From Salegentibacter sp. (lineage in GTDB: Bacteria > Bacteroidota > Bacteroidia > Flavobacteriales > Flavobacteriaceae): a stretch of 64,000 bases of DNA. The stretch is from positions 157,566 through 221,565 of the forward strand of contig JAGXIH010000013.1 in assembly GCA_024635795.1 (NCBI GenBank), read 5' to 3'. Both the position numbers and the translations under genes were made by a program. Below are positions 54,831 to 64,000 of this stretch, in pieces; within the stretch, counting starts at the first letter, position 1; each line of letters begins with the position of its first letter. Below the pieces are notes generated by a model. It had not been told where the DNA came from. It ran no database searches and saw only the letters and a list, made by a program, of their open reading frames with translations.

Positions 54831-54846
54831 GTTAGCAAAAATTACA
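54831..54846 (+). repeat. Left inverted repeat of cassette-like module 1 (GTTAGCAAAAATTACA)
   Basis: Reverse complement of 56122-56136 region (TGTAACTTTTGCTAAC), one mismatch. Confidence 0.75.
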
Positions 54847-54865
54847 AATCAAGAGATAGCATTAA

Positions 54866-56125
54866 ATGAAAAATAATTTGAACTCGCCCTTTGCAATATT
54901 TTCAATTTTAGGAATTGCAATTTTATTATTAGGAATTTTAATTGGATTTATTGTAAAAAGCCCTGTTTCTGATACTATAAATATGAATCCTAACATTATA
55001 GTTAAGGATTCAATAGATTTTGAAAAATTAAATAATAGTAGTTATAAAGAAGCTGCTCTTGTTTTTGAAAAATCCGTTGAGAGCACAATTGATAAAGAGT
55101 TTGATAGAACTATTAATTATTTAAATTTCACGATTGCTCTTTTTGCAGGTTTTCTCACAATTACTTTAGTAGCATTTGGATTTTTCACTATCAGAAAAAT
55201 GGCTGAAGCTAAAGAAATGTTGGATAAGATTATTGCTGCTCCAGATTTAGTAATGCAAAAGTATCATGATAATCAATTAAATGAATTATTACCAAAATTA
55301 TTATCGTCAGATAATAGAGAAAAATCAGATGCAATTCAAAGCATATATTCTAACACTCAATTAGATGAGGAAAAACATTTTGATATTCTATCTAACGCAA
55401 TTGACCGAGAATATCAGTATTCTAATTCTTATACATATTTAAACGTTTTCAATCTATTTGATTCTATGTCACGTTTAAATTATTCTAAAACAATTTTAAA
55501 AGGATTCGAACTTTTCGAAAACAATCACAAGGATAGTACGATGCAATTTGTTGTACCTCGAATAATGGAAAGTAAGGAAAGAGGTCATAAAGAAAGATTT
55601 CTAAATTTATTATGTTCAGAAGATAATAGTTTAGTCAACGATTTAATTAAAAATATTGATCATTTCGAAAATTTTGATAAAGAAATGATTATTTACTTAT
55701 CAAAAAATGCCTCAATACAAATAACATTTCGAATTATAAACTCAATTAATCAAAAAAACAATCAATTAATTAACTATAGGGATTTAATCTCTGAGTTAGA
55801 CAAAAAAGTATTTACCTACAATTATTTTCATCAATTCATCAATCTTTTGAGGCAGCAAAATCAATTAGATAAAGAGATTATTATTGAATTAGTAGATAAA
55901 ATAATTGAAAGTAATGAAACCAATATTGACTATTTTTCTAATATCATTAGAACAATTATTAATTCCTCATTATTAGAAAGTGAAAAAGTTTTTATAATCA
56001 AAACATTGCACGAAAAGTATTCATCTACGTACAACATCTCAGATATTTTAAGGAAAATTAAAAATGAGAATAATCTGAATTTTTTAAATATGGAACTTCA
56101 ATTCAAAAATGCAGGTTTATTGTAA
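54866..56125 (+). CDS. Orphan two-TM membrane protein with long helical cytoplasmic domain
   Basis: 419 aa; TMs SPFAIFSILGIAILLLGILIGFIV and TIALFAGFLTITLVAFGFFTI; markedly AT-rich. Confidence 0.75.
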   Translation: MKNNLNSPFAIFSILGIAILLLGILIGFIVKSPVSDTINMNPNIIVKDSIDFEKLNNSSYKEAALVFEKSVESTIDKEFDRTINYLNFTIALFAGFLTITLVAFGFFTIRKMAEAKEMLDKIIAAPDLVMQKYHDNQLNELLPKLLSSDNREKSDAIQSIYSNTQLDEEKHFDILSNAIDREYQYSNSYTYLNVFNLFDSMSRLNYSKTILKGFELFENNHKDSTMQFVVPRIMESKERGHKERFLNLLCSEDNSLVNDLIKNIDHFENFDKEMIIYLSKNASIQITFRIINSINQKNNQLINYRDLISELDKKVFTYNYFHQFINLLRQQNQLDKEIIIELVDKIIESNETNIDYFSNIIRTIINSSLLESEKVFIIKTLHEKYSSTYNISDILRKIKNENNLNFLNMELQFKNAGLL

Positions 56126-56136
56126 CTTTTGCTAAC
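56121..56136 (-). repeat. Right inverted repeat of cassette-like module 1
   Basis: TGTAACTTTTGCTAAC contains the ORF stop codon and pairs with 54831-54846. Confidence 0.75.
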
Positions 56137-56537
56137 ATCGGTTACGAGCAAATTGCGGGCAATTAGGTGAAAAGTACTATTTTAGAGACCAAGTAAAACC
56201 AACTAAGCCGACAAGAACGCGTCCCTACTCCACGCCACTTGCCGTAACCAAGACCGTTGTGCACAATTTCCACGTTGTTCTGGTCTTCTTGTATGTACTT
56301 TAAGTGATATTTATAAATTTAATTTCTACAAATAAAAAAATTTAATGAGCTTTTCACAAAGAATAGGAAAAACCCTATGCTGGATAATGGTTATGAAATG
56401 ACGAAAAATGAAGATGGGACTTTTCATCTAAAAGCAGTGGATTGTGATTAACCTATTCCGACTGAAATTCACCTAAATCCTCAAAGTTCCCTGATTAGCT
56501 TATCTTGTAATAAATTAAAAATCATATAACAAAGTCT

Positions 56538-62871: not shown

Positions 62872-62962
62872 AGAAATGCTTAATAATGCTCTTTAAAACT
62901 TAAATATAAAAAAATCTCCTGGTTTTCAATAGGATTCCACCTTGTTCCGGATTATCCCGTTA

Positions 62963-63050
62963 GGTTCCGACCGAAGGGAACAGCGCAGCACAATCCGCTA
63001 AGCTAGCGAGCCCGAAGTTTCGATTTGAGACAGGTTTGAGCATTGCTTTT
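62963..63050 (+). repeat. Direct repeat copy A flanking cassette-like module 2
   Basis: GGTTCCGACCGAAGGGAACAGCGCAGCACAATCCGCT...GACAGGTTTGAGCATTGCTTTT; matches 63630-63716 with about a dozen differences. Confidence 0.85.
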
Positions 63051-63064
63051 CATAGGATACATTA

Positions 63065-63073
63065 TTGTAGCAC
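63065..63073 (+). repeat. Inverted repeat TTGTAGCAC of cassette-like module 2
   Basis: Perfect 9-bp reverse complement of 63579-63587 (GTGCTACAA). Confidence 0.65.
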
Positions 63074-63074
63074 G

Positions 63075-63560
63075 TTATTTATATTCATATTTATTCCGCC
63101 AAACATTTTCTCCTTTTAAAAACGTAAGCAGTATTTCAGTCATTTGGTCAACCGTTTCTAGTGGCTTTGCCATTAGTATATGGTCATCATCTGTCACAAA
63201 TCCAGATGCTAAACCGTCATCTCTTAAACTTCCACCCACGTCCAAAGCTTTATATCCATTACCATTTTCGTCTTCTAATTGCACAATGTGAAATTCATTC
63301 CAATTAATTGATTTCATAGTGCTTTTTATTATTTCCGCTGTCGCTTTTTCAGATATAGTTTTTGTGTTTTCTCCGTAGTCATAAGTGACAACAAGTTTTA
63401 AATCTCGTTTTTCTTGTCGGATTTCACTATTCGGTAATTCAGTCCTATTTTCAGCAATTTCGAGTGTGCTGGATTTCTGTTTTGTATTCCAAATAATCAA
63501 AATAATTATCCCGATTAAAGCTAAAACTCCTAAGATTATGTAGGTATTCATTCTTTTCAT
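63075..63560 (-). CDS. Orphan membrane-anchored hypothetical protein, possible immunity-like
   Basis: 161 aa; N-terminal TM; C-terminal GNGYKALDVGGSLRDDGLASGFVTDDDHILMAKPLETVDQMTEILLTFLKG. Confidence 0.65.
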   Translation of the reverse strand: MKRMNTYIILGVLALIGIIILIIWNTKQKSSTLEIAENRTELPNSEIRQEKRDLKLVVTYDYGENTKTISEKATAEIIKSTMKSINWNEFHIVQLEDENGNGYKALDVGGSLRDDGLASGFVTDDDHILMAKPLETVDQMTEILLTFLKGENVWRNKYEYK

Positions 63561-63578
63561 TTGATTTTTTTTGATAAT

Positions 63579-63587
63579 GTGCTACAA
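63579..63587 (-). repeat. Inverted repeat GTGCTACAA of cassette-like module 2
   Basis: 18 nt upstream of the ORF start; pairs with 63065-63073. Confidence 0.65.
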
Positions 63588-63629
63588 CGTCCCGTATAAA
63601 AACAGAGCGGGCGAACTTGATTGTCCGCA

Positions 63630-63716
63630 GGTTCCAACCGAAGGGAACAGCGCAGCACAATCCGCTGAGCAAGCAAGCACAGATTTCGATTAAAGACAGG
63701 TTCAAGCATTGCTTTT
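63630..63716 (+). repeat. Direct repeat copy B flanking cassette-like module 2
   Basis: GGTTCCAACCGAAGGGAACAGCGCAGCACAATCCGCT...GACAGGTTCAAGCATTGCTTTT. Confidence 0.85.
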
Positions 63717-63725
63717 ATATGTTGT

Positions 63726-64000
63726 GTGTGCCCAGCATGGGCATCTCTTAATATATCGAAGATATATTATTAATCTAGAGGGTGCAAGTCCCTTATGGGC
63801 AGGGGTGACGCCCTGAACCATTAGTAAGCCGCAAGGTTGCCAACTGTGAAGTTGGGACTAAAGGAAGCGGGACTACAAACCCTGGTACTGACGAACAGGA
63901 ACCGGATATGAGGCTGCAAGGTTGGATGAGCAAGCACATCATTGTGATGTCCTAAACATTTCTTTCGAAATGAATACCGAAGTAGTAGATCCGGCAGGAA
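63726..64000 (+). mobile_element. Group II intron, 5' end and domain I (continues beyond window)
   Basis: GTGTGCCCAGCATGGGC 5' end; GGTGCAAGTCCCTTATGGGCAGGGGTGACGCCCTGAACC...AGTAAGCCGCAAGG...ACTAAAGGAAGCGGGACTACAAACCCTGGTACTGACGAACAGGAACCGGATATGAGGCTGCAAGG as in bacterial group II domain I. Confidence 0.8.

Follow-up and report, generated by a model that had tools for sequence, protein, structure and literature searches.

Integrons (IntI/attI/attC), including the sedentary chromosomal type, are recognized by an IntI-family integrase with an I2 domain, an attI site beside the integrase gene, and tandem co-oriented cassettes whose hairpin attC sites (R''-L''...L'-R') carry the core GTTRRRY/RYYYAAC and recombine as folded single strands, with exchange at G|TT. 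The I2 helix is needed for cassette capture, has been reported only in IntI, and is thought to have been acquired by an Xer-like ancestor of IntI (PMC7790495). Group IIC-attC introns insert into the bottom strand of attC sites, within R'' at the reported target TTGT/, and opposite in orientation to the cassettes (PMC7923331). In the sections of a study of simple tyrosine recombinases considered here, attI, attC, and arrays are not described for the insertion-less members of the integron-like subgroup (PMC8138268). With respect to Bacteroidetes proper, a survey recorded only In0 elements and one complete integron, that of Salinibacter ruber (PMC9024848), and no earlier description of a flavobacterial cassette system was found in the literature searched, preprints and many journals lying outside its scope; within that scope, the system described below therefore appears to be undescribed.

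The window analyzed here is a stretch of 64,000 nucleotides at the contig end of a Salegentibacter MAG (62% complete). Comparative evidence indicates that a repeat-bounded unit near its edge is very probably a gene cassette that belongs to an integron-like system in Flavobacteriaceae.

The window unit and its attC-like sites

A first-pass annotation had described an ORF (63075–63560, minus strand) with inverted arms at either end and an ~88-bp direct repeat outside them, and this observation was confirmed: the ORF, TTGTAGCAC at 63065–63073, and GTGCTACAA at 63579–63587 lie exactly where reported, and the repeat is genuine, a 37-nt pattern recurring at 62963–62999 and 63630–63666 with 0 mismatches (0 expected from shuffles). 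The two window copies are 92% identical across 50 nt and 88% identical across another 33 nt, and both carry an additional hairpin in the apical loop. On refinement, the arms were found to comprise 10 nt plus a conserved mismatch, namely GTTGTAGCAC-A before the start and AA-C-GTGCTACAAT after the stop. The coordinates of the features are given in Table 1. A NusG_II annotation of the ORF was not adopted, the match being weak and below the cut-off (E 0.004).

Table 1. Positions of the cassette-associated features in the window
Feature	Position	Strand	Remarks
Cassette ORF, 161 aa	63075..63560	−	three other genera have homologues (71–80% identity) bearing these arms
R' core at cassette start, GTTGTAGCACAT	63577..63588	−	putative crossover at ACG|TT; same box in homologues
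R'' core at stop, AACGTGCTACAAT	63064..63076	−	AAT for AAC; complements R' except for the conserved A/C mismatch
L'-like box TGTTTTTATAC, upstream attC-like site	63594..63604	−	invariant in the genus
Internal body, upstream attC-like site (second repeat copy of the first-pass annotation)	63629..63716	−	extra GTTCCcttcggttGGAAC apical insertion
L''-like box CATATAAAAGCA, upstream attC-like site	63710..63721	−	
Downstream attC-like site remnant (first repeat copy)	62962..63063	−	lacks L'-like box and R'
Group IIC intron, 5' part	~63726..64000	+	RF02001, E 1.2e-18, 63840–64000; cut by the contig end
Second cassette-shaped unit	54831..56136	+	GTTAGCAAAA - ORF 54866–56125 (419 aa) - TTTTGCTAAC

Further copies of the repeat were sought, and 4 were found in the MAG and up to 15 per same-genus genome among the matches listed. 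The repeat is an INTERCASSETTE site and, combined with the short arms, makes up an attC-like site for the recombination of gene cassettes. Across Salegentibacter loci, 166 copies occur in tandem, in a single orientation per locus and with a median spacing of 765 bp. Read in the ORF direction, the site begins after the stop codon with N6-7-AAC and AACATATAAAAACAATGC, continues into a variable body that holds the hairpin ATTGTCC-TGC-GGACAAT, and ends in TGTTTTTATACGAGACG|TT, N6-7, A, and the next start codon. A co-oriented main ORF was found in 85 of 88 cassettes, occupying a median 92% of the cassette, and a Pfam search of 73 cassette proteins returned no family with more than two members. No Rfam family matches the attC-like site itself.

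The arms belong to the cassette and not to the intergenic site. For a given ORF, R' (which follows GTT) and R'' (which precedes AAC) are complementary over at least the six leading nucleotides in 88 of 111 cassettes, compared with a mean of 3.1 and a maximum of 11 for shuffled partners (2000 trials), whereas R'' matches the R' of the next cassette across the same site in only 3 of 104 cases. Since the arms pair across the ORF, the arrangement is that of an integron cassette, with attC whole only in the circle. Base 8 after GTT never pairs, being an A opposite C in 83 of 88 cassettes, and the next two bases pair again. The same pattern was observed in 124 cassettes from other genera, in which the first six positions match because the cassettes were selected for this, a match at position 8 is seen in 1%, and positions 9 and 10 match in 92% and 91%, respectively. 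All 212 R' boxes have GTTR and an A at box position 11; the integron core GTTRRRY fits only 8 of these 212.

When the linear window sites were folded one at a time, no significant structure emerged (z about −0.1 to −1.6), since each site combines arms of different cassettes and that at 62962–63073 is truncated; the circular form was therefore rebuilt. The consensus fold of 83 rebuilt circular sites comprises an R box, an asymmetric spacer, an L-like helix (TATAAAAAC/GTTTTTATA, 9 bp, invariant), and an apical stem. The R-box pairs in this fold, which include several pair types, form by construction because the 83 sites were picked for matching arms, so that the independent evidence for arm pairing is the comparison of pairing across the ORF with pairing across the site. 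Site bodies folded alone gave a mean z of −3.2, with 30 of 40 below −2. At two loci (L199, L210), very short attC-like bodies (44–80 nt) lie 3' of the recombinase beside the usual classes of ~117 and ~182 nt.

The intron sits on the bottom strand of the upstream site at TTGT/GTGTG (63722–63726) and runs opposite to the cassette ORFs, and group IIC introns occupy the same place in three site copies (the window, L073, and L067). Bottom-strand insertion in R'' at TTGT/, opposite the cassettes, is shared with the IIC-attC introns; the difference is that the sites here are non-canonical and attC-like, and the genome's other intron copies lie elsewhere. The downstream site (62962–63073) has neither an L'-like box nor GTT, and AAT replaces AAC. 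With L' and R' missing there and the upstream site split by the intron, the window cassette is probably no longer mobile and stranded at the array edge. At L003 (~1590–1690) and L243 (~6934), a group II intron 3' end abuts a cassette R' GTT on the strand of the ORF, opposite to the usual IIC-attC layout, which may bear on intron-made cassettes.

The companion module to which the first-pass annotation had likened this unit, probably that at 54831–56136, is likewise cassette-shaped, on the plus strand. It is preceded by GTTATATAACGAG|TT, resembling a type-2 attI, and is a probable cassette of the type-2 system. Nearby, a short fragment (56366–56452, plus strand; MLDNGYEMTKNEDGTFHLKAVDCD) resembles the C-terminus of a cassette protein in locus L070 (7303–8016) and is probably a decayed cassette.

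Array heads, the recombinase, and their distribution

No recombinase gene lies within the 64-kb window. In Salegentibacter, arrays are headed by a gene for a 374-aa tyrosine recombinase in the same orientation as the array. Six genomes of the genus carry, directly 3' of the recombinase stop codon, a ~50-bp attI-like sequence, AAAGACATAATAGATATAAATGTAATACTGCATTTATACGTACG, with 1–2 substitutions. This site ends ACG|TT, and from TT onward a different first cassette follows in each of the six, revealing cassette turnover between genomes. The 3' half of attI, TTTATACGTACG|TT, resembles the attC-like 3' half, TTTATACGAGACG|TT. A second recombinase clade (386–392 aa) has its own attI, GATATAACACG|TT or similar, directly after the stop. 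Sequence comparison thus places an attI-like site beside the recombinase gene, followed by tandem co-oriented cassettes with R''-L''...L'-R' hairpin sites. The MAG's sole close relative, a type-2 recombinase (G000:C13; L083, 6776–7945), has no attI-like sequence after its stop and is possibly an inactivated array head. For the two cassette pairs shared most recently, the site downstream moves along with the ORF (0.975 and 0.917, versus 0.862 and 0.744 for the upstream site); this rule was not seen in four more divergent pairs.

Recombinases of 298–306 aa near the arrays were also considered and were rejected as the array enzyme, those checked being followed by an IS91-type transposase (Y2_Tnp) and thus nested elements. 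Pairs of a ~298-aa recombinase and such a transposase are nested in or lie beside arrays at L062, L080, L081, and L082.

The array recombinase passes the XerA-type model NF040815 (231 versus a cut-off of 220) and fails the IntI model TIGR02249 (210 bits versus a cut-off of 265). When it is aligned with IntI4 (2a3v), the alignment skips from 179 to 243, and ~21 residues of the query stand opposite ~64 of IntI4; the recombinase thus lacks ~43 residues, including the I2 helix of IntI. Consistent with this, an AlphaFold model (AF2; pLDDT 79, pTM 0.51) has no extra helix at the place of I2, between 270–283 and 300–313. The modeled domains are a beta-alpha N-terminal domain (1–75), a SAM-like domain, and a catalytic domain, and the closest folds are XerA and IntI4. 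In alignments, the catalytic-type motifs GLR, K, HxLRHS, LGH, and Y are kept. In a recombinase tree, IntI is separate from types 1 and 2, but the modest support (83/75) and the meeting of long branches permit no conclusion about ancestry. The recombinase does not fit Xer chromosome-dimer resolution, a housekeeping and near-universal function at dif: the gene is patchily present, as the count for type 2 below shows, and adjoins attI and cassettes; separate genes of Xer size (299 and 308 aa) occur in the same genomes.

A type-1 profile scan found at least 519 relatives, and the 80 retained are nearly all from Flavobacteriaceae, including Aquimarina, Maribacter, Arenibacter, Winogradskyella, Gillisia, and others. 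Among the 48 loci in other genera with enough downstream sequence, 44 have a first cassette with a returning arm (control mean 4.2, maximum 11), and 31 have chains of 2–8 cassettes (0 of 144 shuffles). In these genera, the crossover GTT lies a median of 44.5 nt past the recombinase stop, and attI is often a palindrome with CAATTG|TT after it. Of 201 genomes sampled from across the family Flavobacteriaceae, 75 have the type-2 recombinase.

A search of 250 other Flavobacteriaceae genomes for the window ORF yielded close homologues (71–80% identity) in 3, which represent three other genera. All three carry the same R' GTTGTAGCACAT and R'' CGTGCTACA, so that the window unit moves with its R boxes. 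Their neighbors differ: an attI-like palindrome, the end of an intron, or another type of short site body. The same cassette is therefore present in four genera, including that of the window, with differing site bodies, a finding for which the simple transfer of cassettes does not account.

Proposed mechanism and competing explanations

In the mechanism proposed here, a cassette consists of TT and R' (GTT-R-N6-A), the ORF, R'' (the reverse complement of the cassette's own R', ending AAC), L'', a variable body, L', and ACG. Circle formation, if it occurs, would re-form the whole R''-L''...L'-R' hairpin, which is attC-like. The putative catalyst is the XerA-like tyrosine recombinase (374–392 aa), whose gene lies immediately 5' of the array in the same orientation; it would insert cassettes at the attI-like site that adjoins the stop codon of this gene, with crossover at ACG|TT. 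With insertion at the head, cassettes would pile up as a co-oriented array. The structure and junction positions suggest that the substrate is a folded single strand rather than duplex DNA. By analogy, the need of IntI for I2 would count against this candidate catalyst, which is without I2. We infer recombination at these sites from the compared sequences.

The first-pass annotation had taken the long repeat for the recombination site. That view holds in part, in that the repeat is the internal body of the site, but the crossover would fall at the arm (ACG|TT), making the process site-specific and not homologous recombination between repeats. Its further suggestion of a general gene-capture system gains support from arrays of unrelated ORFs between repeat copies with cassette-specific arms, from the attI-like head adjoining the recombinase with differing first cassettes at near-identical attI, and from the cassette found in four genera; the comparative data contradict the notion that the repeat is confined to this place and has fixed content.

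An ordinary integron array or CALIN, with attC sites that are simply divergent and a canonical IntI encoded at another place in the genome, would also present the order R''-L''-L'-R', a GTT core, co-oriented small ORFs, and a IIC intron at TTGT/, all of which are integron-like. We consider this improbable: no TIGR02249 match above the cut-off was found in 15 Salegentibacter genomes, and among 299 Bacteroidota genomes, 86 have canonical IntI by the curated cut-off, with one in the window's class and none in Flavobacteriaceae among the matches listed. Furthermore, the enzyme at the array heads lacks I2, and GTTRRRY is rare among the cores (8/212). It is also hard to believe that the arrays are real but inert relics beside which a mobilizable element carrying the recombinase inserts, even though L070 has mobilization-type genes 5' of the recombinase gene, IS91-type elements that bring a different recombinase lie nested within arrays, and the window copy is decayed; in six species, attI is otherwise near-identical but is followed by different first cassettes, and in 44 of 48 loci from many genera, matching arms come immediately after attI, both of which need insertion at that place. 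That the repeats are short, structured, and intergenic would suit a REP/MITE-like element or a terminator between genes, with the arms as transcription terminators. This explanation is scarcely tenable, being contradicted by arms that pair across the ORF (88/111) and not across the intergenic site (3/104), by the fixed mismatch position, and by a first arm at the constant GTT adjoining the recombinase.

Relation to integrons and Xer recombinases, and implications

The flavobacterial system shares with integrons the cassette arrays, the attI-like site at the head, the R and L boxes, the G|TT crossover position, R''/R' complementarity, a majority of ORFs of unknown function, and IIC introns in the bottom strand of the site. 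In contrast to IntI, its recombinase is without the IntI-specific insertion, has an N-terminal extension of ~100 residues, and reads toward the array, with attI just 3' of the stop; the core is GTTR-N6-A with a conserved mismatch, and attI is often palindromic. The XerA/Xer family (NF040815; PDB 5hxy, 4a8e) is nearest to the catalytic part in sequence and fold, with the difference that the array recombinase has the N-terminal extension and is tied to attI-like sites and arrays, not dif. Overall, the system works like an integron and is not a member of that group as defined, because it has neither IntI with I2 nor the GTTRRRY core.

On balance, we lean toward the broader view that Flavobacteriaceae, and perhaps much of Bacteroidia, have an integron system of their own, with several I2-less Xer-like clades, the core GTTR-N6-A, a fixed A/C mismatch, and an often palindromic attI. 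Such a system would either use folded single-stranded attC without I2, perhaps with the N-terminal domain or the mismatch as a strand signal, or capture cassettes as duplex, like the state proposed to precede IntI.

A large gene-capture system of marine Bacteroidota has apparently been overlooked so far. If this is true, a widespread cassette system headed by an I2-less enzyme would either have arrived at the same device independently or be a surviving relative of its ancestor, and the origin of integrons would become testable. The occurrence of the same ORF and R boxes with different attC bodies across genera bears on how attC is acquired by cassettes. Many cassettes may escape the present integron finders, and the system would account for the travel of many orphan genes of marine Flavobacteriaceae.
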